From a virus: a stretch of DNA of 64,000 nt. The stretch lies in IMG/VR virus record IMGVR_UViG_3300028837_001398, positions 1-64,000 of that record. One strand, written 5' to 3'. A model generated the notes under the pieces. That model was not told where the DNA came from. It saw nothing but the letters and a program-made list of their open reading frames with translations, and did no database searches. The position numbers were made by a program, and so were the translations under genes. Of the stretch, positions 2,784-60,408 are shown one piece after another. Each line of letters begins with the position of its first letter. Position 1 is the first letter of the stretch.

Positions 2784-3088
2784 GCCGCGCCGCCCTTCGT
2801 TAGCGGCTGGATTATGAGGCGTTCAGAAGGAGCACCGACATTGCGGAACTCCTCCCAGTTGGCGAGAGTCTGCTTGAGCTTCTTTGAGTTCCATCCGCCC
2901 CCGCCGGTCGTCGGCACCCAGACGAGCTTGACATGCCGGGAAGAAACCGCGACTTCTGTCTCGCCATCGCGGGCCTCATCCAACTTCACGCGGGCCTGCT
3001 TTGCTCTCTCTGCGGCCTCATCCGCGGCCGCCTTGGCGTCCAGATACTCTTGTGCGGCAAATTCGATAGGACTGGCGGTGGCCCTCAT
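2780..3088 (-). CDS. Small coiled-coil protein of the recombination operon
   Basis: A 102-residue protein. The start is placed at the ATG overlapping the upstream TGA (ATGA); the reading frame is open further upstream, but that part lies inside the previous gene. Residues 10-45 are Ala/Glu/Lys/Arg-rich and should form a helix or coiled coil. A short beta-like block with a GGGGW stretch and a basic tail follow. No family recognised. Its position between the possible annealing protein and the HNH/SbcD genes suggests an accessory recombination role, without direct proof. Confidence 0.6.
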   Translation of the reverse strand: MRATASPIEFAAQEYLDAKAAADEAAERAKQARVKLDEARDGETEVAVSSRHVKLVWVPTTGGGGWNSKKLKQTLANWEEFRNVGAPSERLIIQPLTKGGAA

Positions 3089-4152
3089 TCCGCACCACCC
3101 TTCGCCGGCGCCTCCTTCCCGATGAAGGCGCGACACCTCTCGCACCACTCCAGCAGATCCTCAACGCTGGCGTCCTTCGGTGCTTTCGGCGGCATACTCT
3201 CGATGTGGCCCAGCTTCTGTTCGGCGCGGGCCGCCGTCCAGAGTCGGTCGCACTCAGCGCGCGCAGCCTCGATCGTCGGCGGGTTGTCGGCCTCCGGTTC
3301 TGGCTCAGGCGAATCGGGGCCGCCGTCCTCGGCAGCGGCCTCAGCCTCCGACGCGTCGGCACCCTCTTCCGCGAGGACCCCAGTCTCTTCGGCCTCTGGC
3401 TCGACGACCTCTCCCTGAACCGCCTCGGACTGCTCCGTGGACCTGGGCTTCCCGAACAGATCCTCAGCCGCCGACTGGACCTCGGCAGTCTCCAGCTTGC
3501 GTGTCAGAACGTGCTGAGTCAGCTCCACCGTCTTCTCGCCGAATCCCGGCTTGAGTTTCAGCACACCCCCCGCCTGCGCGATGAAGTAGCGGAGCACCAT
3601 GTTCTCGGCCTTCGTGCGGCACAGGGCCTCCCGGTGCGTTTGGACCTCCATCCGCCTCTCCATGACTTTGGCCTTGACGCGCGGAGGCAGGGTATTCGCC
3701 AGTGCCAATGCCGTCTCTTCGGTCGCCGTGCGCGCCAGGGCGGTAGACTGGTCTCCCGACGGAGTAGTGGACTTGACTTCCTTCAGTGCGCCCTTGAACA
3801 GCTCAGCGGCCAGATCATATTCCTTCGACTTCTCGATAACCTCGAGCAGTCCATCGCGGCGCAGGTGGTAGCCGCGGGCGATGACCCTGACGCGGTTCCG
3901 GTCAAGTTCCACGACGGTCGAATGCGCATGGGCACCAATGGCATTGGCCTGAATCAGCAGGCCGGCGGTCCCGGTATGACACATGACCGCCGTGGAAACC
4001 CACTCGTCGCCGACCTTCTTGTTCTTGGACTCGAGCCAGAAATGGTCATCTTCACGCAGAGTTGCCGCTGCCGGGATTTCCTTGATCTCGTCTGACGTCG
4101 CGACCTGGTACAATCCTGGGGCGAGGTTCTGAAAGCCGATGATCCCGTTCAC
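3085..4152 (-). CDS. Phage protein of unknown function, possible DNA-annealing type
   Basis: A 355-residue protein starting at GTG with a strong ribosome site (GGAGGGG about 7 nt upstream). Three parts are visible: an alpha/beta N-terminal region (1-125), a helical region around residues 150-215 that includes R-T-K-A-E-N-x-V-L-R, and an acidic, proline-rich low-complexity stretch at about 245-295 before a short C-terminal domain. The helix vaguely recalls the conserved K-A-x-x-x-A-L-R helix of phage single-strand annealing proteins (RecT/Erf/Sak groups), and SbcCD lies just downstream, so a recombination role is plausible. This is inference; I could not assign a family. Confidence 0.7.
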   Translation of the reverse strand: MNGIIGFQNLAPGLYQVATSDEIKEIPAAATLREDDHFWLESKNKKVGDEWVSTAVMCHTGTAGLLIQANAIGAHAHSTVVELDRNRVRVIARGYHLRRDGLLEVIEKSKEYDLAAELFKGALKEVKSTTPSGDQSTALARTATEETALALANTLPPRVKAKVMERRMEVQTHREALCRTKAENMVLRYFIAQAGGVLKLKPGFGEKTVELTQHVLTRKLETAEVQSAAEDLFGKPRSTEQSEAVQGEVVEPEAEETGVLAEEGADASEAEAAAEDGGPDSPEPEPEADNPPTIEAARAECDRLWTAARAEQKLGHIESMPPKAPKDASVEDLLEWCERCRAFIGKEAPAKGGAE

Positions 4153-4173: not shown

Positions 4174-4223
4174 GCCCGCCAGCCATTAGGCGGGTTGACA
4201 TTCCGCCGCTGGCGGGATAGAAT
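4174..4223 (+). promoter_or_regulatory. Rightward promoter with flanking dyads, antisense to the early operon
   Basis: TTGACA at 4195-4200, 17 bp, then TAGAAT at 4218-4223, on the strand opposite to all nearby genes. Two inverted repeats flank the -35: cccgcc / ggcggg before it, and ccgcc / ggcgg (3-nt loop) in the spacer. A longer pair, cccgccagc / gctggcggg, spans both. It would produce an RNA antisense to the genes at 4292-4823. The dyads could bind a regulator or fold in the leftward mRNA leader. Confidence 0.5.
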
Positions 4224-4291: not shown

Positions 4292-4627
4292 TCATTCCTC
4301 TCCTCCTCGACTGTCGTCTCTGGCTTCTGCGATCTGCTCGCTCACGGGTTCCTTGCCCTCGGCATACAAGCTCGGCAACGCCTGTCCGTTCTGCGGGTCA
4401 ATCCACGCATCGGTGCTGCCGTGCGGGAATCGGATACAGAGTCCAGCCTCTCCCCGCAGATCCTTCCAGTTCGCGCCGATCCGCTTGCTCTGTGCATCCA
4501 GAATCTTGCCGGTCTCCCGGTCGGTGCGGCCCAGGTCGTCGATACTCCGTTGCTGTAGGCCGGACCATACGAGCTCGCAGACGATGGCGAGGCCCATGAT
4601 GAGAATGCAGACGCGCTCAAGCCGCAT
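4292..4627 (-). CDS. Small single-pass membrane protein
   Basis: A 111-residue protein if it starts at the ATG 11 bp inside the upstream gene; a longer start at 4675 would overlap that gene much more. Residues 4-23 form one hydrophobic segment (ILIMGLAIVCELVW), so the N-terminus is anchored in the inner membrane or acts as a signal. The remainder is hydrophilic and ends in acidic and charged residues. No family recognised. A small membrane protein in a leftward early operon could be a superinfection-exclusion or host-takeover factor, but nothing shows this directly. Confidence 0.6.
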   Translation of the reverse strand: MRLERVCILIMGLAIVCELVWSGLQQRSIDDLGRTDRETGKILDAQSKRIGANWKDLRGEAGLCIRFPHGSTDAWIDPQNGQALPSLYAEGKEPVSEQIAEARDDSRGGEE

Positions 4628-4823
4628 GTGCGTTCGGCGCGCCCAGCGTGCGCCCAATGATGGTGCGTGCATCATCGCGAATCACCTCCTCTCTGGACAT
4701 CAGCCTTGCCGCGAACCCGTGGCCCTCGAGGATCGGCTCCAGAGCATCCAACTGCCTCGCCGAGACCCGAGCCATCACCTCGCCTGTCTGAGCGTCAACT
4801 ATGTGGTACTCAGCCATCGTCAC
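4617..4823 (-). CDS. Small conserved-looking early protein
   Basis: A 68-residue soluble protein. It begins with a beta-strand pattern (Y-H-I-V-D-A-Q-T-G-E-V), followed by a helix and a short Arg-rich tail. The composition is balanced and typical of a small folded phage protein; no family is recognised. It is the first protein gene downstream (leftward) of the structured gene-free region and overlaps the membrane-protein gene by 11 bp. Confidence 0.6.
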   Translation of the reverse strand: MTMAEYHIVDAQTGEVMARVSARQLDALEPILEGHGFAARLMSREEVIRDDARTIIGRTLGAPNAHAA

Positions 4824-4829
4824 CTATCA

Positions 4830-5537
4830 CAAGCCCCGGCCAGGGGCGAAGAGGGGGTAGAACGCCCCCAGCCTGGGGCGGACTCGCTGCCGGGCCGCAC
4901 AAGTGCCCCGCCACGGTCGCGCCCCTTGTCGGTGCGATTGCTGGCGATGCGGCCCGGCCCAGCCATTGGTGTCTGTGTGCAGTCCCCGCCCGACGCGGCG
5001 TCGGTGCGCGGCTAGACGGGGAGCCATGATGAGTACCCCCTTTCGTGATGATTGCAGCGCCCCCAGAGCTCTCGCCGCGACATGCACGGCGCGGAGGCGC
5101 TGGGAAGCGGTCCCGGGGGGACCGAATAGGATAGCTGCTGCCGATGATTGCACCCGCGGGGGAGCGAACCGGCGGGCTGTTCGCTGACCGCCCCCATATC
5201 ATCGGCAAGATAGATGGCTGCGTTGGCCTATCTCTCCCGCCGTCCCGCCGTCGTTGGGCACCCCGCGCCCAGGGTCCCGCAGGCACGTCGCCACATCTGC
5301 ACTTCGCCGAACTGGAAGCACGAGCGGGGGAGTCGAATGCCGCAGTCTCCGATCTCCGCGCAACAGGACCCTGTCGGCTGCCTCGGCCGCTGCGGCGCGC
5401 CCCGCCTCCCGGCGGGCCCGCGGGAACATCGTCTCCAGTCACAATGAATGCGGGGACGACGGCCTCAGTTCGAGGTCTCGGTGTGGGCGCCGTCGCCCCC
5501 AGGGGATCCACCCTACCGAGCAGGGAGGGGGTAGGAC
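4830..5537 (-). ncRNA. Candidate large structured RNA beside a tRNA gene
   Basis: About 700 bp with no convincing coding frame (the open frames give low-complexity Pro/Arg/Ala/Gly strings) but many strong helices. Examples: an 11-bp perfect stem pairing 4889-4899 with 4948-4958; cgcccc/ggggcg at 4863-4880; ccgacgc/gcgtcgg at 4990-5004 inside tccccg/cgggga (4983-5022); cggtccc/gggaccg at 5108-5124; a nested hairpin at 5139-5207; cccgcc/ggcggg at 5401-5416; cgacggc/gccgtcg at 5457-5495; cctacc/ggtagg at 5512-5535. It directly follows tRNA-Met in the leftward transcript. Large phage RNAs next to tRNAs are known (GOLLD and ROOL classes); membership is inference, and both strand and exact ends are unproven. 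Confidence 0.45.
5139..5207. repeat. Nested long hairpin within the structured region
   Basis: tgccgatgat at 5139-5148 pairs perfectly with atcatcggca at 5198-5207 (10 bp). Inside it, ggggg (5158-5162) pairs with ccccc (5191-5195), and agcgaa (5163-5168) with ttcgct (5180-5185). There is no U-run on either side, so it is not an ordinary terminator. It fits a multi-helix arm of a structured RNA on either strand. Confidence 0.7.
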
Positions 5538-5612
5538 TGGTTGCGCGGGCAGGAGTCGAACCTGCGGCCTCCGGGCAATGAACCCGGCGCGCTACCACTG
5601 CGCCACCGCGCT
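5538..5612 (-). tRNA. tRNA-Met(CAT), initiator-like
   Basis: A full cloverleaf of 75 nt including an encoded CCA. Acceptor AGCGCGG / CCGCGCA leaves A1 opposite A72 unpaired. The anticodon stem CCGGG/CCCGG has three G-C pairs next to the loop TTCATTG (anticodon CAT). The T-arm is GCAGG-TTCGACT-CCTGC. The missing 1-72 pair and the GGG/CCC stem are bacterial initiator-tRNA hallmarks. Oddities are T at position 37, which is normally a purine, and an elongator-like C11-G24 pair. Confidence 0.92.
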
Positions 5613-5664
5613 GCGGAAAAGCTCGTCTATTCGCCTGTATGAGCCTGGAATCCATCCGATGCCC

Positions 5665-6012
5665 TCAGACCAGGGAAAGGCCATCCCCGGCGCAAACAGG
5701 TGGGGTATGCTCCGCTGGGCGACCATCCGAGAGGGATGGGCAGCCTGTAGGTTCCGGGGTTTTCCGGGATTGGGCCGTCCACAGTCCGTCCGAGGTGTGC
5801 ACCGCGCCCGTAACGGTATGCGTACACTGCCACCAGCCGCAGATCACACACTCGTCCCGGTAGCCGCTCTCACCTGTGTCGGGGTTCTCCCACCACTCAG
5901 TCTGCCAGTCGTTCACACCGCACCGACAGGCGCCGTTCCACTTGTAGCCGGGTTCGTATAGGTCAGCAGGAGCGACGCGGCGTAACGCCGTCATTTGGCT
6001 GGATACTGTCAT
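5665..6012 (-). CDS. Small Cys/Trp-rich protein, probable zinc binder
   Basis: About 115 residues from the chosen ATG; the start is uncertain because the frame overlaps the upstream ORF. The middle holds C-R-C, then C-V-I-C and another Cys after two tryptophans, with many aromatic residues around them (for example TEWWENPDTGESGYRDEC). This looks like a small zinc-ribbon-type fold that ends before a Pro-rich tail. It is the third gene of the leftward early transcript and lies just before tRNA-Met. Function unknown. Confidence 0.55.
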   Translation of the reverse strand: MTVSSQMTALRRVAPADLYEPGYKWNGACRCGVNDWQTEWWENPDTGESGYRDECVICGWWQCTHTVTGAVHTSDGLWTAQSRKTPEPTGCPSLSDGRPAEHTPPVCAGDGLSLV

Positions 6013-6169
6013 CCTCTCGTGTCCTCTCGTCTGGCTCGTCGTCTGCAACTGCCTGGAAGAACCTAGTCGTGGTATTGAACATGCGCTTGAACGCCCGCTC
6101 GAGGGCCTCCGCGATCTGGTGCGCGTTTGGTTGCTTACGCGGCGCTGGTCGGGTCACAGACGTGGTCAC
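5963..6169 (-). CDS. Small early ORF coupled to the Cro-like regulator
   Basis: A 68-residue protein whose GTG overlaps the TGA of the XRE gene (GTGA), so it is probably translated by coupling. A helix rich in Ala/Glu/Arg (residues 15-32) is followed by a Phe/Thr patch and an acidic, polar tail. No family was recognised. It may act with the regulator in the early switch, which is inferred from position only. Confidence 0.5.
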   Translation of the reverse strand: MTTSVTRPAPRKQPNAHQIAEALERAFKRMFNTTTRFFQAVADDEPDERTREDDSIQPNDGVTPRRSC

Positions 6170-6408
6170 TTGGCGTCTCCCGAGAGTTCCTTGATGATAT
6201 CCCGCAGATGCTCAAGCTCGGCCCTGGAGACCTTGCGCCCCCCGGGAAGCAGCCCACGGCTGATTTCACTGATGTAGCTGATGCTGCGACCGGCCCTATC
6301 CGCAACATTCGTGATCGTCACGCCGCGGTGCCGGTTCCGGTCAATCAACCTCCCAAGGCTTCTGAGCTGACTCCGTGTGGCGTTCTGCGCTCTCACAGTG
6401 GTTTCCAT
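6166..6408 (-). CDS. Cro-like XRE-family regulator
   Basis: An 80-residue protein with one helix-turn-helix. The recognition region is around residues 33-55 (V-A-D-R-A-G-R-S-I-S-Y-I-S-E-I-S-R-G), the usual XRE pattern. It lies immediately downstream of the strong leftward promoter at 6447-6475 and is divergent from the CI-like repressor, which is the classical place for Cro. It likely binds the operators in the 6409-6532 interval and turns down the repressor gene during lytic growth. The family is clear from sequence; the Cro role is inferred from position. Confidence 0.85.
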   Translation of the reverse strand: METTVRAQNATRSQLRSLGRLIDRNRHRGVTITNVADRAGRSISYISEISRGLLPGGRKVSRAELEHLRDIIKELSGDAK

Positions 6409-6446
6409 AGCATCGTCCTGTCACCATTCCCTATTCTTCCGTGATG

Positions 6447-6475
6447 ATTCTAGCATAATGCTCCCATGTTGTCAA
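6447..6475 (-). promoter_or_regulatory. Main leftward early promoter
   Basis: On the minus strand, TTGACA (6475-6470), a 17-bp spacer and TAGAAT (6452-6447), with TGC directly before the -10. Expected start is near 6440, giving a leader of about 30 nt before the Cro-like ATG at 6408. It is one of the best promoter matches in the window and probably drives the whole early operon down to SbcC. Confidence 0.85.
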
Positions 6476-6510
6476 GGGGTTTGGACATGAATTTTCATGG
6501 CATAATGGCT
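6452..6510. promoter_or_regulatory. Putative operators of the lysogeny switch
   Basis: Three symmetric sites lie between the divergent promoters: agcataatgct at 6452-6462 (overlapping the leftward -10), catgaa-tt-ttcatg at 6486-6499, and ggcataatggc at 6499-6509. The first and third share the core GCATAATG. These are the natural binding sites for the CI-like and Cro-like proteins, but which protein binds which site is not shown. Confidence 0.6.
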
Positions 6511-6517
6511 TTTTCTG

Positions 6518-6526
6518 TGCTATAAT
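6518..6526 (+). promoter_or_regulatory. Repressor promoter (extended -10), leaderless transcript
   Basis: TGC followed by a perfect TATAAT at 6521-6526, with no good -35 element. The expected start is at or very near 6533, which is the A of the repressor ATG, so the mRNA would be leaderless, as with the lambda cI transcript from PRM. No ribosome site precedes the ATG, which fits. Confidence 0.7.
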
Positions 6527-6532
6527 GGGGCG

Positions 6533-7216
6533 ATGCCAGGGAAGGAACGAGAACCGGAAAGCGACTTTGGGCGTCTGCTTCGAGCCTTACGACGGCAGCA
6601 ACGCCCGAGGCTTGCCCAGGATGGCATGGCGAAGCGCCTCGGCGTCAGCGCGGCAATGTATGGCCGGTATGAGCGGGGCTATATTGATCCGCCACCCGAA
6701 ACCGTTGAGGCTATGGCAACAGCATTCGGGGCAGACCCCGCCGAATGGCTCCGTGCCGCAGGATACGAGCCAGTTGGCCCCGTCGAGGTAAGCGTAGAAT
6801 CTCCGCCCGCCGACTTGCAGTCCGCCGAGTTACCCATTGTTGGAATCCTGCGAGGCGCGGTCGTCTACGCGCCGCGGGCAGGGATGCAGCACATATCAAT
6901 CACCATGCAGGGGGGTTACGTGAGAGGAATCGAAGGCGTGATCCGGGTTGAGGGCGCCGCTTCGATTCCCTTCTTGTTGCCCGGCGACATCCTGCTGGTT
7001 CGGTCGGCGGCGGGGGACGAATCCGAAGGGACGCTCGTCGTGGCACGGAAGGGAAAGAGGCGACTGCTAGGCTATCTCGCAAGGACTGGGAAGGGCATGG
7101 AACTGGAGGGCATCGGATCGCTCGCCGCGAGTGACGCGACTGGCATCGACAGGCTCGAGTATGTGGTGTGTGGACTGTGGCGCGCGGAGGAGGTCATAGG
7201 GAAGGTCCGGCCGTAG
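6533..7216 (+). CDS. CI-like repressor (XRE helix-turn-helix plus S24-like C-terminal domain)
   Basis: A 227-residue phage repressor. The N-terminal helix-turn-helix spans about residues 12-62 (R-L-L-R-A-L-R-R ... M-A-K-R-L-G-V-S-A-A-M-Y-G-R-Y-E-R-G). A linker leads to a C-terminal domain from about 95 that resembles the LexA/S24 fold (LLPGDILLVRS at about 148-158). The Ser and Lys catalytic residues of S24 autoproteases are not obvious at the usual spacing, so self-cleavage is uncertain. It is divergent from the Cro-like gene across an operator-rich interval. It should hold the prophage silent by blocking the leftward promoter. Confidence 0.88.
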   Translation: MPGKEREPESDFGRLLRALRRQQRPRLAQDGMAKRLGVSAAMYGRYERGYIDPPPETVEAMATAFGADPAEWLRAAGYEPVGPVEVSVESPPADLQSAELPIVGILRGAVVYAPRAGMQHISITMQGGYVRGIEGVIRVEGAASIPFLLPGDILLVRSAAGDESEGTLVVARKGKRRLLGYLARTGKGMELEGIGSLAASDATGIDRLEYVVCGLWRAEEVIGKVRP

Positions 7217-7571: not shown

Positions 7572-9203
7572 ATGTGCCGCCTGCTCACGATTCTGATGGT
7601 GCTGGGTATCCTTGCTGGGTTTCCGCTGAGCGCTGGCGCCGAACCTGTCGCATTGGACCTCGTCAGTTTTTTCGACACGCCATCGGCCACATACAGCATA
7701 GTGTCGGATGGCGACTATGCCTACGCAGTGCGCTATGGGGACGGATGCTCGCCCGGCTTTGAGCCAGGCCTGCTGATCCTCGATATCTCGAATCCGTCGG
7801 CACCCGCGCAGGTGGCCTTCGAGCCCACGCCGGGCTGCCCTGGACGGCTCGCCGTTGACGCGACTCATCTCTACGCGCGCCTCCATGATGCGCCCTGCGT
7901 GCCAGCAGACGGCGGCGATCTGGCAATTTATGACGTATCAACACCCGCGTCGCCCGGGCTCATTTACCTCGATGATCACGGCGTTGACATGCTGGTCACG
8001 GACCCGGAAAGCCCCGGACTGCTCTACGCTACCCGTTATGCCGCCCAGGACCTCCTCATGACGATAGATGTGTCAGATCCCGAGGCGCCGACCGTTCTCG
8101 ATTCACTGACAATACCAAATGGACTCTACCTCGTGGTTATTGCCTACCCCTACGCCTACTTGGCCGGGCCCGACTACACGCCCGGGCCAGTGGCCCCTGG
8201 GAACTCGGTGCTCCAAGTAATCGATGTGTCCGACCCTGCGGCGCTGGAACACCTCTCCACCACGACCTTCGAGGACTTCCGCTCCGCGAGCATCGCCGTC
8301 GCGGGCAGTTGGCTCTACGTCCTCGGACAGGACGAGGCACTCTACGTTCTCGACGTATCCGACCCCGCGAACCCGACCCCGGTTTCCTTCTGCGAGACCG
8401 CTGGCGGGAGCCTAGGCGTGCAGGTCCACCACGGCTACCTGCAGCTCGGCCATGACTACGCGCTCGTGAGCCTCAACTGCGATGGGCTTTGGGTAGTCGA
8501 CATCCTCGACGCATACAATCCCGCGGTCGCGGCCTACTATGAGAGCGCGCCCGCCTGGATCGGCAGCACCGCGCTGGTAGATACATATCTCTGCGCAAGC
8601 GGCGAGGGCGGCGTGTCCGTCTTGCGTGCCATCCCTCTTTTCGACGACATGCGCTGGGGCGACTGGGGCGTGGCGGCTGTCCACGCCTGCGCGGACGCGG
8701 GCATCGTCGCGGGGTACGGTGAACGGACCTATGCACCCTCCATCCCGGTCACCCGCGACCAGATGGCGGTGTACGTCTCCCGGGCTCTGGCGGGCGGCGA
8801 CGGAAATGTCCCCGCGCCCGGGGGTGATCCGACCTTCTCCGATGTGCCAGAGGGGCGGTGGGGATACCGCCACATCGAATATGCGGTTGCTGCGGGCGTG
8901 GTCCAGGGCTACCCGGGTGGCATGTACTTGCCGGAACTGCCGGTGACACGTGACCAGATGGCCGTCTACGTCGCCCGCGCTGTCGTCGATCCGACGGGCG
9001 AGGATGGCCTCGCAAGCTACATCCCCCCGGCCGAGGCGAACTTCTCCGACGTGCCAGAGGGCTCCTGGGCATTCAGCCACGTGGAATACTGCGCCGAACA
9101 TGGGATCGTGCAGGGCTACCTCGACGGGACCTACCAGCCGGGCGCGGTCGTAACGCGCGACCAGATGGCGGTCTACATCGCCAGGGCCTTCGGGTTGCAG
9201 TGA
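7572..9203 (+). CDS. Secreted LVIVD-repeat beta-propeller protein with three S-layer homology repeats
   Basis: A 543-residue exported protein with a clear AAGGAGG ribosome site. Residues 1-23 form a signal peptide. Residues 25-355 contain repeated blades with the pattern L-x-V-x-D-V-S-D-P-x-x-P (LVIVD type). Three SLH-like repeats follow (starting about 360, 420 and 485), each with a FSDVPEG-like opening (weaker in the first), a G-I-V-x-G-Y segment and T-R-D-Q-M-A-V-Y. SLH repeats bind secondary cell-wall polymers or the equivalent layer, so the protein should sit on the lysogen surface. Its place between repressor and integrase marks it as lysogenic-conversion cargo. The exact function of the propeller is unknown. 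Confidence 0.88.
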   Translation: MCRLLTILMVLGILAGFPLSAGAEPVALDLVSFFDTPSATYSIVSDGDYAYAVRYGDGCSPGFEPGLLILDISNPSAPAQVAFEPTPGCPGRLAVDATHLYARLHDAPCVPADGGDLAIYDVSTPASPGLIYLDDHGVDMLVTDPESPGLLYATRYAAQDLLMTIDVSDPEAPTVLDSLTIPNGLYLVVIAYPYAYLAGPDYTPGPVAPGNSVLQVIDVSDPAALEHLSTTTFEDFRSASIAVAGSWLYVLGQDEALYVLDVSDPANPTPVSFCETAGGSLGVQVHHGYLQLGHDYALVSLNCDGLWVVDILDAYNPAVAAYYESAPAWIGSTALVDTYLCASGEGGVSVLRAIPLFDDMRWGDWGVAAVHACADAGIVAGYGERTYAPSIPVTRDQMAVYVSRALAGGDGNVPAPGGDPTFSDVPEGRWGYRHIEYAVAAGVVQGYPGGMYLPELPVTRDQMAVYVARAVVDPTGEDGLASYIPPAEANFSDVPEGSWAFSHVEYCAEHGIVQGYLDGTYQPGAVVTRDQMAVYIARAFGLQ

Positions 9204-9209
9204 CGGCCA

Positions 9210-9419
9210 GTGCCCGTTGGCGACCCGGAGATCAATATCAAGGCGGGCCACGACGGCCTCTGGGCCGAGTTCGAGATCGAGCCGCCTGTCTATGTCAGTT
9301 CCGCGGACATGGATTATCACCGCTCGGAGTGTCCACGCCTGGCAGACGATGCGAAGGCCACCAGTAGGTCGAAAGCGGAGGGCTCCGGTTTCAGCCCGTG
9401 CTCCGAATGCAAGCCGTGA
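9210..9419 (+). CDS. Small zinc-binding protein (Ada-metal-binding-like CxxC end)
   Basis: A 69-residue protein starting at GTG six bases after the SLH gene. The C-terminal half has Y-H-R-S-E-C-P ... F-S-P-C-S-E-C-K-P. This is the common short phage/bacterial module in which a His-Cys pair and a CxxC bind one metal, as in the Ada-type metal-binding repeat. It lies 16 bp before the integrase start and is likely co-transcribed with it. Its role could be in recombination control, which is inferred from position only. Confidence 0.6.
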   Translation: MPVGDPEINIKAGHDGLWAEFEIEPPVYVSSADMDYHRSECPRLADDAKATSRSKAEGSGFSPCSECKP

Positions 9420-9435
9420 GGACGGCCGCGAGTCT

Positions 9436-10908
9436 GTGATTCCCGCCGTCATCTACGCGAGAGTTTCCTCCGAGCTGCAAGCCGTCCAGGGCGGCGGTCT
9501 CGAGGACCAAGTCCGGGCCTGCTGTGATCTATGCGAGCGCGAGGGCTGGGAGGTCAGGGCCACCTACCGGGACGAGGGGATCTCCGGGGCTACCGAGAAC
9601 CGCCCTGCATTTCAGCAGGCCCTGCAAGCTGTTCCGAGCGGCGGTATCCTCGTCGTCGACCGCTATGACCGGCTCAGCCGTGACGCCCGCTATCGGCTCC
9701 AGCTCGCCGACGAACTGGCCCGCCGCGGTATTGCGATTGTCTCCCCCCACGGCCGCGTCGATATCGAGAGTGCGGCAGGATTCCTCGTCTACGGCATCGA
9801 CTCCGTAGTCTCCGAACACTACCGGCGGCTCATCGGCGAACGCACGGCCAGGGCATTCCAGCGCCGGCGCAAGCAGGGCCAGCAGCACGGCGGCACGGCA
9901 CCCTACGGCTACACCTGGGGACCCGAGGGAGAGCTGATTCCACAAATGGAGCACGCCCGGGTGCTACGGCAGATCTTCGCCTGGGCACAGGAGGGCATTG
10001 GAAAATCGGCGATCGCCGGACGATTGAATAAGGCTGGAATCACGCGGCCGGACGGGAAGCAGGGACTGTGGCAGGACGCGACGATCAAAGACATCCTGCT
10101 GAATCCTGTCTACCTTGGTTTCGTCTGCCATCGCTTCCGCAAGCAGGTAAGCCAGACTGGCAAGACTGTGTGGCGCCGGCTCCCGGCGGACAAATGGGAA
10201 ATCTTCGAGGGGAGCCACCAAGCGATCATTGACCGTGACCAGTTTGAGCAGGTACAGTCGATGTTGCGCTCGCGGTCCTGGCGCGTTCCGACCAACTATG
10301 GCCACCAGTTTCTGCTGACTGGTCTGCTCCATTGCCCCCATTGCGGCGGCCGAATGCACGGCAGTCACCAGCGAATGGGATCCCGGCGCTATCCCACCTA
10401 CCGCTGCTCGACCCACATCCACTCCCGCACCTGTCGCTCCACATGTCGTGGGGCCGAGAAGTGGGAACGGGCCTTCATTGACGAACTGGAGGCGATCCTT
10501 GCTGGCGAACGGATTCTCGATCAGAGCTGGCACTATGGAAGCGCCCGGCCGAGCAGTGAGATCGAGGAGACGGAAGCCGAACTGGCCGCACTGAGTAGCC
10601 GACGCGCGGCGATCTTCGAGGCGCTCGAGACGCGGCAGTGGCCCCTGGAGGTGTTACGGCAGCGGCTGGATCGGATCGAGGGCAGGGAGGTTGAACTCAA
10701 GCGGAAGAGGGTGGAGGCGCAGGGCCAGCAGACAAATGGGAAGCCGCCGATACGGCTTCAAGGCTTGCGAGAGGTCCTGATGTCGAGGGATATCCCAGTA
10801 GCCCAGAAGCGCGCAGCATTGGCGGAAGTGGTCGAGCGCATAGACTGGAGGGAAGACGGCGGACTGGAGATCACGTTCCACGCGTTACGTCCAAACGCGA
10901 GAAGATGA
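9436..10908 (+). CDS. int: Large serine recombinase (phage integrase)
   Basis: A 490-residue site-specific recombinase. The GTG at 9436 is chosen because the resolvase domain begins right there (V-I-P-A-V-I-Y-A-R-V-S-S); the catalytic Ser lies in the RVSS motif near residue 11. The resolvase core runs to about 140, with DRYDRLSRDARY and the long helix ending E-R-T-A-R-A-F. The recombinase domain follows (G-G-T-A-P-Y-G-Y ... NPVYLG), then the zinc beta-ribbon near residue 300 (CPHCGG ... YRC ... C) and a coiled coil (about 380-440). It integrates and, with a directionality factor, excises the prophage. Its presence shows a temperate lifestyle. Confidence 0.95.
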   Translation: MIPAVIYARVSSELQAVQGGGLEDQVRACCDLCEREGWEVRATYRDEGISGATENRPAFQQALQAVPSGGILVVDRYDRLSRDARYRLQLADELARRGIAIVSPHGRVDIESAAGFLVYGIDSVVSEHYRRLIGERTARAFQRRRKQGQQHGGTAPYGYTWGPEGELIPQMEHARVLRQIFAWAQEGIGKSAIAGRLNKAGITRPDGKQGLWQDATIKDILLNPVYLGFVCHRFRKQVSQTGKTVWRRLPADKWEIFEGSHQAIIDRDQFEQVQSMLRSRSWRVPTNYGHQFLLTGLLHCPHCGGRMHGSHQRMGSRRYPTYRCSTHIHSRTCRSTCRGAEKWERAFIDELEAILAGERILDQSWHYGSARPSSEIEETEAELAALSSRRAAIFEALETRQWPLEVLRQRLDRIEGREVELKRKRVEAQGQQTNGKPPIRLQGLREVLMSRDIPVAQKRAALAEVVERIDWREDGGLEITFHALRPNARR

Positions 10909-27092: not shown

Positions 27093-27124
27093 GTCACACT
27101 CTCCCGAGATATGGTTTGCGCGGC

Positions 27125-27171
27125 CCGGGGCGGGTCCAGCATCAGCTCGGGTCTGCGAGGACCCGCCCCGG
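27125..27171 (-). repeat. Strong GC hairpin between tail tube and chaperone genes
   Basis: ccggggcgggtcc (27125-27137) pairs perfectly with ggacccgccccgg (27159-27171), 13 bp, 21-nt loop. It has no U-run after it, so it is not a standard terminator. Being at the 3' side of the tail tube gene, it may protect that mRNA end from 3' exonucleases or limit read-through into the chaperone gene. Confidence 0.75.
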
Positions 27172-27183
27172 TGCCGCTATTGC

Positions 27184-27777
27184 TCACGACCCAGAAAGAT
27201 CGCTCGGCAGCCACAATTCCCACGGCTCGTCGTATGGCGAAGCCAGGGATGCGTGGCCGGTCCACTTGGCGGCGATGACCGCCTCATCGTTCGGCCCCAA
27301 CGGAATCGCCAGCGGCGACTCTGGCAGCGCGTTCGAGATGATCGCGACGAAGGGCAGATCGTTGCCGTGGATCGTCCCGACCAAGGCGAGGTTGTCGAGG
27401 TAGTCGCCAGCCTCCACCGGTCCCCCCGTGATGACGGTGTAGTCTGGATCGCTGTCATCCGAATCCGCTCCCGCGATCAGGCGTGCCATGTTGTTCGGGA
27501 ACAGTTCCAGCGCGTTCGTCTCGATGGTCGCGACGACACGGCTGCGCCGCCGCAGTCCCTTGGTGGGGCCGATGGCCCCGTCCACGGTGATCTCCCGGAT
27601 CTCCCGCTCCACCGTGAACGTGCTTCCGCCCCGCGTCGCCCCGATGCAGATTCCGGGGTTGTCTGCATCGATGAAGTTGGCATAGATGGCCCCGGCGTCG
27701 ATGAGAATGCGACTGGGGGTGTCGCCCGAGAGGCCGTTGAGCCCCAGGTCGCCCGGCATCGTCGGCAGGCTTGCCAT
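27184..27777 (-). CDS. Major tail tube protein
   Basis: A 197-residue beta-rich protein without Cys-rich or enzymatic motifs. The N-terminus (D-A-G-A-I-Y-A-N-F) and the central T-V-D-G-A-I-G-P-T-K-G-L-R-R-R-S-R-V-V-A-T-I pattern fit phage tail-tube proteins, with a C-terminal S-P-Y-D-E-P-W-E-L-W. Place between the tail terminator block and the G/GT chaperones is canonical. It must be made in high copy, and strong hairpins bracket the gene on both sides. Confidence 0.85.
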   Translation of the reverse strand: MASLPTMPGDLGLNGLSGDTPSRILIDAGAIYANFIDADNPGICIGATRGGSTFTVEREIREITVDGAIGPTKGLRRRSRVVATIETNALELFPNNMARLIAGADSDDSDPDYTVITGGPVEAGDYLDNLALVGTIHGNDLPFVAIISNALPESPLAIPLGPNDEAVIAAKWTGHASLASPYDEPWELWLPSDLSGS

Positions 27778-27840: not shown

Positions 27841-27888
27841 CCCAAAAGCAAAGGCCCTGACTCCCCCTACCGGTAGGAATCAGGGCCT
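27841..27888 (-). terminator. Terminator-like hairpin upstream of the tail tube gene
   Basis: Read leftward, AGGCCCTGA ... TCAGGGCCT (9 bp, containing a smaller CCTACC/GGTAGG stem) is followed by TTGCTTTTGG. It precedes the tail tube gene by about 65 bp and lies downstream of the Ntn-hydrolase gene. No promoter was seen between it and the tail tube gene, so read-through or antitermination must feed that gene. Confidence 0.65.
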
Positions 27889-27934
27889 CTGTCCCTTCGG
27901 ACAACCGCCCGTCGGCGGCTGCTTTCAGGGCATC

Positions 27935-28555
27935 CTATGCGATTGTCAATGCGGTCCTATCAGCGTCCGCGGTTTTGTCCCTGTCCGCGTCCGCCGCCGC
28001 CTCCTCGGCCGGGGCCGCCAGCAGGACAGGGTGATGTGTTTCGTCCGCCCCCCTGCCCGCCCGGCACCCCGCGGCCGCCGCCGCGTCCGTCCTGCGGCCT
28101 TGCGCGCAGTCGATAGCCTCTTCAATGGAGCGTCCAAGGTGAAGGGCCGCCAACGCATAGTCCATACCTGCTCCTATTGCGAAAAAGTCCAGCACTTCTC
28201 GCACGTAGTAGTTGTGGCTGTAGAATGCTTTCTCGCCGAAGACTATAAGGAAGCTGTTTTGCCCCCCCGTGATCTTCGGTTTGTCATACTCGTTCTGCTG
28301 GTGCAACCATCCAGCGCATTCATGGAGCCAGCTAAGGACCGCCTCTTCATCTGTCGCTCTCGGTATGTGAGTTGCGGCATAGGTGCGAAGCAGAAAGCCA
28401 CCTTGACTTTCCCCCACGTTGCCGATGATGAAGCCAGGGCGCACCTCGGCCAGCTTCGCGAACTGGTCCTTCTCCTGTGTTGTCCCGCGGACACGAATGC
28501 TGTCTGCCCCGATCACGATCTCCGTGTCTGTTACCTTGATAGCGACGACGCTCAT
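27935..28555 (-). CDS. HslV/proteasome-like Ntn hydrolase in the tail operon
   Basis: A 206-residue protein with the proteasome-beta/HslV pattern. It opens M-S-V-V-A-I-K-V-T-D-T-E-I-V-I-G-A-D-S, has a Lys in Q-F-A-K-L near 35, a G-F-I-I-G-N-V-G-E-S-Q-G strand-turn, and F-A-I-G-A-G-M-D-Y-A-L-A-A-L-H-L-G near 125-140, like the GSG-x2-A-x2-A helix of HslV. After removal of Met1 the candidate nucleophile is Ser2, in place of the usual Thr. The last 50 residues are Ala/Asp-rich and disordered. It may process virion proteins or be a catalytically changed structural subunit. Confidence 0.75.
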   Translation of the reverse strand: MSVVAIKVTDTEIVIGADSIRVRGTTQEKDQFAKLAEVRPGFIIGNVGESQGGFLLRTYAATHIPRATDEEAVLSWLHECAGWLHQQNEYDKPKITGGQNSFLIVFGEKAFYSHNYYVREVLDFFAIGAGMDYALAALHLGRSIEEAIDCAQGRRTDAAAAAGCRAGRGADETHHPVLLAAPAEEAAADADRDKTADADRTALTIA

Positions 28556-58096: not shown

Positions 58097-58933
58097 TCAT
58101 CCCATCCACGGCAGCGACGCCCGCCGTTCGCCCAGCCACGGCAGCACCGGGCAACCCTTGCGTAGCTCGCCACTACCGTCTTCGTCCGTGGCCATCTGCT
58201 TGACCATGACCGGCACGCCCGCAACGTCGCATTGCTGCACGAGCTCCCGAATCCAGGCGTGAGGCGTCGGCCGGCGCTGGGAACCGGACTCGCAGCCGAT
58301 GATGACGGCATCTATGGCAGGCGGTCCAGACCACAAGTAATCGGCGTATAATCCTTCGCCCTGCCGTAGGTCTACCGCCTCCAGCATCGGCTCTACGCTC
58401 AGGAACCTATGCGCGGCAGGCGTGTCGAGCACAATCGGTGCCTTCTCGTCGGCCTCTGCTTGATTCGAGACGGAGACGCCGAGCCAAAGATTGCCCCAGG
58501 CATTCGCGTTGCCCGTTGCATCCAGGCCTCCGTAGTGCTGAAAGAACTCGCGCTGCCTTTCTGGTCGCTTTGTCAGCAGTAGATAGGTGTGTTGTGGGGT
58601 TCTTCGCACTGTCGTGAGAACATCTGCGATGAAGTCTGTCGGGACCCCTTCGTGGAACAGATCCCCCATGCTCGGCACGAAGACAACCCGTGGCTTCCGC
58701 CAGTGTAGGGGCTGGTCGAGCCGGTCCTCGTGGCAGATCACGCGGGAGAAGGGGACGGGTAGTGTGGTGTAGCAGTCCGGTGTGCCCACGTGTTCCGTCC
58801 CCCCATGCGACTGCGGGAACCGCCGCGCCATGTCCGCGGCATAGCAGTGCAGGCACCCAGGACTGCACGGGGTACAGCCCGAGACGGGGTTCCAGGTTGA
58901 TTCCGTCCACTCGATTGTGGTCTTACTCGCCAT
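58097..58933 (-). CDS. Phage Gp37/Gp68 family protein (radical-SAM-like, DUF5131)
   Basis: A 278-residue protein. The start I-E-W-T-E-S-T-W-N-P-V-S-G-C-T-P-C-S-P-G-C-L-H-C-Y-A is the family signature, with three or four cysteines that probably hold an iron-sulfur cluster. P-S-M-G-D-L-F-H and L-L-L-T-K-R-P in the middle, L-S-V-E-P-M-L and G-C-E-S-G at about 170-215 are further family blocks. The family is widespread in phages and is thought to be a radical-SAM-type enzyme with an unknown substrate. Confidence 0.92.
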   Translation of the reverse strand: MASKTTIEWTESTWNPVSGCTPCSPGCLHCYAADMARRFPQSHGGTEHVGTPDCYTTLPVPFSRVICHEDRLDQPLHWRKPRVVFVPSMGDLFHEGVPTDFIADVLTTVRRTPQHTYLLLTKRPERQREFFQHYGGLDATGNANAWGNLWLGVSVSNQAEADEKAPIVLDTPAAHRFLSVEPMLEAVDLRQGEGLYADYLWSGPPAIDAVIIGCESGSQRRPTPHAWIRELVQQCDVAGVPVMVKQMATDEDGSGELRKGCPVLPWLGERRASLPWMG

Positions 58934-59156
58934 CGCTCACCTCGCTCAAGTCTAACCTACCGTCGCTCGCCATCTCACTCAGGGAATCCCCGACCCGGCC
59001 CGCGGCAACGCAGAGCTGGCGGTTTGCCCCATATGACGAGACCCGGTATCTCCCATCCTCGATCTCCAGCACTATAACGGCCTTCGAGCCGAACCGTTTG
59101 CACAGTTCGCGGGCCGCCATGATATGCGGATCGCGCCGCCAGTTCGGGTCAGCCAT
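58923..59156 (-). CDS. Small hypothetical protein
   Basis: A 77-residue protein with an N-terminal helix (I-M-A-A-R-E-L-C-K-R-F), strands (K-A-V-I-V-L-E-I-E-D-G-R-Y-R-V-S-S-Y) and an acidic tail (L-D-L-S-E-V-S-D-G-E). Overlaps the next gene by 11 bp. No family recognised. Confidence 0.5.
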   Translation of the reverse strand: MADPNWRRDPHIMAARELCKRFGSKAVIVLEIEDGRYRVSSYGANRQLCVAAGRVGDSLSEMASDGRLDLSEVSDGE

Positions 59157-59179
59157 GTCGCCTCACGCCCTCACCCTCC

Positions 59180-60028
59180 TCACGAGCTCACACCATGCGC
59201 GCGCATGGCCGGCAGCCGCTTCGTCGCTAGCATCGCGGCCGGCCGCGTCCACTTTCTCTGCAATGCCCGCCAATCCGGGCTATAGTCTATGTGCCTGTCC
59301 GCAGGCTGGTAGAGCATCGCGAATGGCAACGCGCCAGTGTCCAGTACCATCTGCAAGCGCGCTCCAGCAGCCTCGACACTATCGCGTCCGAATCCGCAGA
59401 GCACGAAGCACCTCACCTGCCGCAGGCCCAAGCCTGCCGCCCGCAGTCGCACGATCGCCGACTCAGTGTCCGCCCACTGGGTCTCTGCATCATAGGCAAC
59501 GAACAAATCCTCAATGGGCAGAGACCGAAGCTCCTCAATGCGAGTATCCGTCAGGCGTTCCGCCTCAATCCCTCCCGCGAACTTCACCCGCCTGCCCTGC
59601 GCCACGAGCATCGCGAAGACGGCCTCGATATGCCTATCAGAACATGCCAGCAGGTTGTTGTCCTGCACATCGTAACCGTCACGAATCGGCAGCTCTCGAA
59701 TGCCGCCCTCTCGCCGCCACGCCAGACACCACGGGCAGCGGTTCGGGCAGCCGCGGGAAGTGATTGTGTAGCCTGGTCGGAGGTAGCGGCCGGGTTCGAA
59801 CTCCTCGCCAATGTCGTCAAAAGCAGGCCCGCCTATGCGTACCTTCCCAGGATAGTACGCACCCCATGCCCGCTCCAGCCGTTTCGCCTCCGGTATGTCC
59901 CAAGTGAAGGTGACGCTTACATGCACTTCATCCGCCTCAGGCCGGAAGAGAGAAGGGTCTCCGACGAAGGCTAGCGCGTCTATTGGGGTTGCCTTCGTTC
60001 GGCGCGGGAATACCCGGAGAATCCTCAT
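59180..60028 (-). CDS. Radical SAM-like protein
   Basis: A 282-residue protein starting at the ATGA overlap. The motif S-R-G-C-P-N-R-C-P-W-C near 89-99 is a C-x3-C-x2-C iron-sulfur binding site. The rest follows a TIM-barrel-like alternation, with K-F-A-G-G-I-E-A-E-R-L near 155 and V-R-C-F-V-L-C-G-F near 210, typical of B12-type or phage radical-SAM enzymes. It has no recognised substrate partner. It may act with the Gp37/Gp68-like gene 1 kb downstream, both using iron-sulfur chemistry. Confidence 0.85.
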   Translation of the reverse strand: MRILRVFPRRTKATPIDALAFVGDPSLFRPEADEVHVSVTFTWDIPEAKRLERAWGAYYPGKVRIGGPAFDDIGEEFEPGRYLRPGYTITSRGCPNRCPWCLAWRREGGIRELPIRDGYDVQDNNLLACSDRHIEAVFAMLVAQGRRVKFAGGIEAERLTDTRIEELRSLPIEDLFVAYDAETQWADTESAIVRLRAAGLGLRQVRCFVLCGFGRDSVEAAGARLQMVLDTGALPFAMLYQPADRHIDYSPDWRALQRKWTRPAAMLATKRLPAMRAHGVSS

Positions 60029-60408
60029 GCCCTCGCCCTCATCTCCCGCTGCATCTCCTCCCACCGCGGAACCGCCGCGAGGAAGATCGCGCAGGCATCT
60101 CTCACATGCTCACCCTTCTCCCCGTCGAGCTCCCGCAGTTCCTCCCGGCTCAGAATCTCCGCGAAGCTGGATCGCAGCACCGCCCACGCTAACGCCGGTG
60201 CTTGCCCGTGCTGGCCGGGTACCTGGATCGTCACCTCCGGCGGGTGAGGACAGCTACCCGCCACCATACAAATCCCCCCCCCCATCCAGGACTGCGAGAC
60301 GCCGACATGGCGCCGCCCTATCACGCTGATCGGCATAGCCACGCGCGTCGCGCCCATCACCGCCTTACAGACTTGCGCTCGGGCCTCGTCTCGTGTCATC
60401 TCACTCAT
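60025..60408 (-). CDS. Hypothetical protein
   Basis: A 127-residue protein. The N-terminal helix (E-A-R-A-Q-V-C-K-A-V-M) is followed by G-I-C-M-V-A-G-S-C-P-H-P and a helical second half (W-A-V-L-R-S-S-F-A-E-I-L). Coupled to the radical-SAM gene by an ATGA overlap. No family recognised. Confidence 0.5.
   Translation of the reverse strand: MSEMTRDEARAQVCKAVMGATRVAMPISVIGRRHVGVSQSWMGGGICMVAGSCPHPPEVTIQVPGQHGQAPALAWAVLRSSFAEILSREELRELDGEKGEHVRDACAIFLAAVPRWEEMQREMRARA

Follow-up and report, generated by a model that had tools for sequence, protein, structure and literature searches.

A 714-bp G+C-rich stretch lacking a recognizable protein-coding gene, downstream of an initiator-type tRNA-Met gene in the early region of a temperate phage

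The DNA analyzed here, which we call the window, covers 64,000 nt of an IMG/VR virus record that totals 72,435 bases. Nearly the whole window reads leftward except for 6.5-10.9 kb, and the genes for the portal, the major head protein, the terminase, and the tape measure protein all lie on the minus strand. With its CI/Cro-like repressor pair and a serine integrase, the virus is, judging by its gene matches, a temperate tailed phage. The leftward early region (Table 1) runs from the Cro-like gene through small genes, tRNA-Met, the G+C-rich stretch at 4824-5537 that is the subject of this work, and the genes at 4617-4823, 4292-4675, and 3085-4152 to the HNH endonuclease gene and SbcD. A protein family search assigned no family to the small gene at 4617-4823. 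On the plus strand, 4195-4223 also matches the promoter consensus closely (TTGACA-17-TAGAAT, 11/12); this second match is oriented rightward and antisense with respect to the early genes and the stretch.

Table 1. Features of the early region and of the stretch at 4824-5537
Feature	Position	Strand	Remarks
SbcC-like N-terminal frame	3-728	leftward	early region; read from sequence
SbcD gene	916-2199	leftward	early region
HNH endonuclease gene	2190-2783	leftward	codon score -16.7 despite being a genuine gene
355-aa early gene	3085-4152	leftward	early region
Small gene	4292-4675	leftward	early region
Small gene downstream of stretch	4617-4823	-	68 aa; GTG start, internal ATG at 4817; codon score +9.5
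Noncoding G+C-rich stretch (candidate RNA)	4824-5537	-	714 bp; between tRNA-Met and small gene 4617-4823
66-aa ATG frame, Arg-rich, probably not a gene	4827-5027	-	codon score -8.9; GC1/2/3 0.78/0.69/0.75
Exact 11-bp inverted repeat GCCGGGCCGCA/TGCGGCCCGGC	4889-4899/4948-4958	-	48-nt interior
Exact 10-bp inverted repeat TGCCGATGAT/ATCATCGGCA	5139-5148/5198-5207	-	49-nt interior
tRNA-Met(CAT), initiator-type	5538-5612	-	ARAGORN; Rfam tRNA 59.7 bits (cmscan); initiator features read from sequence
Cro-like repressor	6166-6408	-	first gene of leftward transcript; phrog_6223 transcriptional repressor, E 3e-5
Predicted leftward early promoter	6447-6475	-	TTGACA-17-TAGAAT, extended -10; 11/12 consensus matches
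CI-like repressor	6533-7216	+	divergent from leftward transcript; HTH_31 and PHROG repressor matches
Serine integrase	9217-10908	+	gene match

The preliminary description of this DNA had placed the region directly behind tRNA-Met, and this is correct, the stretch lying immediately downstream of the tRNA gene on the minus strand. Residues 1 and 72 of the tRNA are mismatched (A1xA72), and its anticodon stem ends, next to the loop, in a run of three G:C pairs (29-31:39-41), both initiator features; the CCA end is encoded. Position 37 is a T, which is unusual, and similar tRNA-Met genes occur in several other phages (L089-L094). Relaxed ARAGORN detected no tRNA relics within the stretch, although GGAGTCGAA at 5329 resembles a tRNA T-arm. 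An attachment site at this tRNA is unlikely, the integrase being a serine recombinase encoded at 9217-10908.

The stretch had also been described as about 700 bp without a believable protein, an assessment that the codon model, G+C content by codon position, Pfam, and PHROGs all support. With a codon model trained on this phage, every open reading frame of at least 25 aa within the stretch scores 0 or below, and the second-position G+C content of these frames is 0.61 to 0.78 compared to 0.39 to 0.57 in called genes. Because this model misses some genuine genes, the HNH gene at -16.7 among them, we also checked composition by phase. The 3-base amplitude is 0.10 to 0.18 in the stretch versus a window mean of 0.27, which makes the stretch neither a coding sequence nor a gene that decayed recently. 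The longest low-coding run of the window extends from 4701 to 5850, and the stretch is its core. Ten frames of the stretch gave no Pfam matches at an E value of ≤0.1, and the only two PHROGs matches to its frames were at chance level (E values of 0.03 and 0.08). Neither codon usage nor 3-base periodicity nor a family match thus marks a protein-coding gene here. The G+C content of the stretch is 69 to 70%, compared to 68% for the gap 4824-5962, 63% for coding DNA, and 57 to 67% for other gaps. No copies of the stretch were present elsewhere in the window, and no terminator-like site was found within it.

The 11-bp stem reported earlier (4889-4899 with 4948-4958) is exact, and so is a 10-bp one, the interior of which (5139-5207) can form further 5- and 7-bp helices, as read from the sequence. 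The broader claim that the region is full of long perfect stems holds for these two, but counts of stems of at least 8 bp are ordinary compared to shuffled sequence. At least two perfect stems of at least 10 bp occurred in ∼1% of 300 dinucleotide shuffles, while as many stems as in the stretch were reached in 10% of them at 9 bp and in 48% at 8 bp. The two long stems are a mild excess, judged after stems had been noticed.

Folding of the whole stretch gave a z of -1.08 for the transcribed (minus) strand, with 11 of 100 shuffles as stable, and a z of -0.13 for the plus strand. The best 60-nt and 80-nt windows of the stretch were matched by 36% and 31% of shuffles, respectively, sliding 100-nt windows showed a mean z of -0.34 in the stretch versus -0.10 elsewhere, and the folding energy of its 240-nt blocks was ordinary. 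The stretch folds no better than its composition predicts, and control segments of the same phage ranged from +1.6 to -2.5, the latter being part of the capsid gene. As a positive control we used the ROOL RNA that the Rfam model locates on plasmid pMP118 of Ligilactobacillus salivarius; it scored a z of -1.54 on the RNA strand in the same test. Because this proven ROOL RNA barely beats shuffled sequence, folding energy is insufficient for calling an ornate RNA and the unremarkable z of the stretch does not exclude one; taken alone, folding energy can do neither. What the ordinary z does is remove the stems as evidence for an ornate RNA. They are largely what DNA of 69 to 70% G+C yields by chance, and caution is needed in general at 70% G+C, where 10- to 11-bp stems and impressive folds lie near chance level. 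Enrichment of A in loops was seen neither in the stretch nor in the ROOL control and is therefore uninformative as an RNA signature. The 8-mer AGGGGGTA at 5034-5041, before the ATG of the 66-aa frame, is complementary to UACCCCCU, which occurs once at each end of the stretch (5526-5533 and 4852-4859), so that it could pair with only one of them at a time; 8-bp matches are expected by chance at such a G+C content.

The situation beside a tRNA had been likened to that of GOLLD and ROOL RNAs, and as to place the analogy is fair. GOLLD env-38 was originally identified downstream of a Met-tRNA, and RNAs of both classes are often near tRNA islands (PMC12286853). Like env-38, the stretch is large protein-free phage DNA directly downstream of tRNA-Met (PMC12286853), and it shares the GOLLD setting of a phage or prophage near tRNA genes, here a serine-integrase temperate phage with tRNA-Met adjacent; many GOLLD RNAs exceed 800 nt, whereas this gap has 714. 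Further hallmarks of the GOLLD class are an ornate secondary structure backed by covariation and a discrete transcript whose level increases during lytic growth. ROOL RNAs are phage- or plasmid-borne, often near tRNA genes, and of comparable length (the model has 574 positions), and the stretch has the same phage-borne location, but its G+C content is 70% compared to 40% for the pMP118 ROOL RNA. The covariance-model search proposed with the analogy was run, and GOLLD, ROOL, and the other Rfam families all remained unmatched in the stretch. At gathering thresholds, cmscan of the window returned only two tRNAs, and none of the 4227 families of Rfam 15 fell within 4824-5537. A permissive scan of 4500-6600 (E≤10) added to the tRNA only sub-threshold matches, the best in the stretch being the Caulobacter sRNA CC3552 (5407-5500, minus strand) at 26.4 bits versus a cut-off of 50 (E value of 0.1). 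The GOLLD model (RF02032), which covers the conserved 3' region, had no match at an E value of ≤10 in the whole record or in the scan of 4500-6600. The ROOL model (RF03087) likewise had none at an E value of ≤10 in the whole record, while the same search recovered the known ROOL RNA of pMP118 with an E value of 1e-29. At the level of the Rfam models, membership of the stretch in GOLLD or ROOL is excluded. Unclassified long noncoding transcripts have been reported for phages ICP1 and K (PMC7567579, PMC9241854). These also come from long gaps without open reading frames, which in phage K adjoin tRNA genes, but they were seen as abundant transcripts, whereas the stretch is known from sequence alone.

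No relative of the stretch was found among viral contigs, bacterial genomes, phages, and plasmids. Searches by blastn against phages and plasmids gave chance-level matches or none, those with the stretch plus its flanks against phages gave only tRNA matches, and with exact patterns taken from the stretch and from the tRNA the outcome was either no match or a single one, in a Bacillus genome, as expected by chance. A 21-base match in one genome (G447) lies inside a gene and was discarded. The early genes fared similarly. The gene 3085-4152 had no relatives in viral contigs, bacterial genomes, or phages, SbcD had none in viral contigs and only distant ones in Bacillus-type phages, and a protein search with the small gene 4617-4823 found none. 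Two matches to 5665-6048 were rejected as chance, being in another reading frame. For the capsid protein, four near relatives (66 to 100%) were present in viral contigs, all of them 23- to 33-kb fragments without the early region, and a Bacillota genome (G127) encodes one at 53% identity but does not contain the early region. The latter match is a hint to the host phylum. Since the early gene 3085-4152 has no relatives either, the absence of relatives of the stretch reflects poor sampling of this phage group.

We consider that the stretch is probably transcribed but not translated, as part of the phage's leftward early transcript, between the initiator-type tRNA and the next gene. Transcription would start at the predicted promoter (6475-6447, minus strand) and proceed through the Cro-like gene, one or two small genes, the tRNA, the stretch, and 4617-4823, and further on through the HNH and SbcD/SbcC genes, with read-through across the stretch into the downstream genes. 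The tRNA would be excised by host RNases, and the 714 nt would then act both as trailer of the tRNA and as 5' leader for the mRNA that follows. The hairpins, strong mainly from the ∼70% G+C content, would at most shield the 5' end created in this way or act as a spacer between the two parts. This reading is supported by the consistent minus-strand gene order below a strong promoter match beside the CI/Cro pair, by the lack of a terminator-like site, of coding signal, and of 3-base periodicity, and by the ordinary folding energy. The Rfam scans, in which nothing at E≤10 came near any family cut-off, and the lack of detectable conservation in the collections searched are also in its favor. Against it, the stretch is richer in G+C than the genes and other gaps, which a neutral spacer need not be, and the pair of long exact stems (10 and 11 bp) is mildly in excess, such a pair being found in ∼1% of shuffles. 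The folding test, in addition, has little power for ornate RNAs, and the lack of relatives is due to poor sampling of the phage group.

It is unlikely, in our view, that the early transcript instead releases a discrete molecule from beside the initiator tRNA, a large structured phage RNA of a new class that has no sequence relationship to GOLLD, ROOL, or other Rfam families. A protein-free stretch of the right size lies directly behind tRNA-Met, in line with the env-38 precedent downstream of a Met-tRNA and with the vicinity of GOLLD and ROOL RNAs to tRNA islands (PMC12286853), its G+C content is raised, it contains two long exact stems, and the transcribed strand is slightly more stable than the other. 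However, no Rfam family matches, the fold is not better than that of shuffled sequence, and there are no relatives and so no conservation or covariation. Such an RNA, if it is a discrete molecule, would add one more class to the few large phage RNAs of still unknown function, in this case within the early operon of a temperate phage.

We find it quite improbable that one or more unrecognized small proteins account for the stretch, the most plausible being that of the Arg-rich 66-aa frame (5027-4827). Its ATG follows a G-rich Shine-Dalgarno-like AAAGGGGG at normal spacing, its stop codon lies three bases before the GTG of the next gene, a tight packing, and low codon scores occur even among real genes of the phage, the HNH gene at 2190-2783 (-16.7) being an example. 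The frame has, however, a second-position G+C content of 0.69 versus 0.39 to 0.57 in called genes and a codon score of -8.9, no match in Pfam or PHROGs, and no tblastn match in phages, and it would account for just 200 of the 714 bases. Least probable, to a degree that makes it very unlikely, is that the stretch acts as DNA rather than RNA, as a replication origin, a regulator-binding region, or recently inserted foreign DNA. A base composition unlike that of the rest of the genome and the 10-base sequence GATGATTGCA, repeated directly at 5047 and 5143, would fit such an element, but repeats were limited to two-copy chance matches, with no iteron array or larger repeat family, the stretch has no plasmid or phage matches, and the attachment site would normally be expected at the serine integrase (9217-10908), not at the tRNA.

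Some other parts of the window deserve mention. The most structured 100-nt background windows are 27101-27200 and 27851-27950 on the minus strand, with z values of -6.1 and -7.3; they coincide for the most part with the short gaps on either side of the gene 27184-27777 and may be terminators or hairpins for processing. On the plus strand, 7572-9203 encodes a 543-aa protein that has three S-layer homology domains as well as LVIVD repeats; it is located between the genes for the repressor and the serine integrase, a typical place for lysogenic conversion genes. A DUF5131 protein is encoded near a protein matching a radical SAM phage family, at 58097-60064 on the minus strand.
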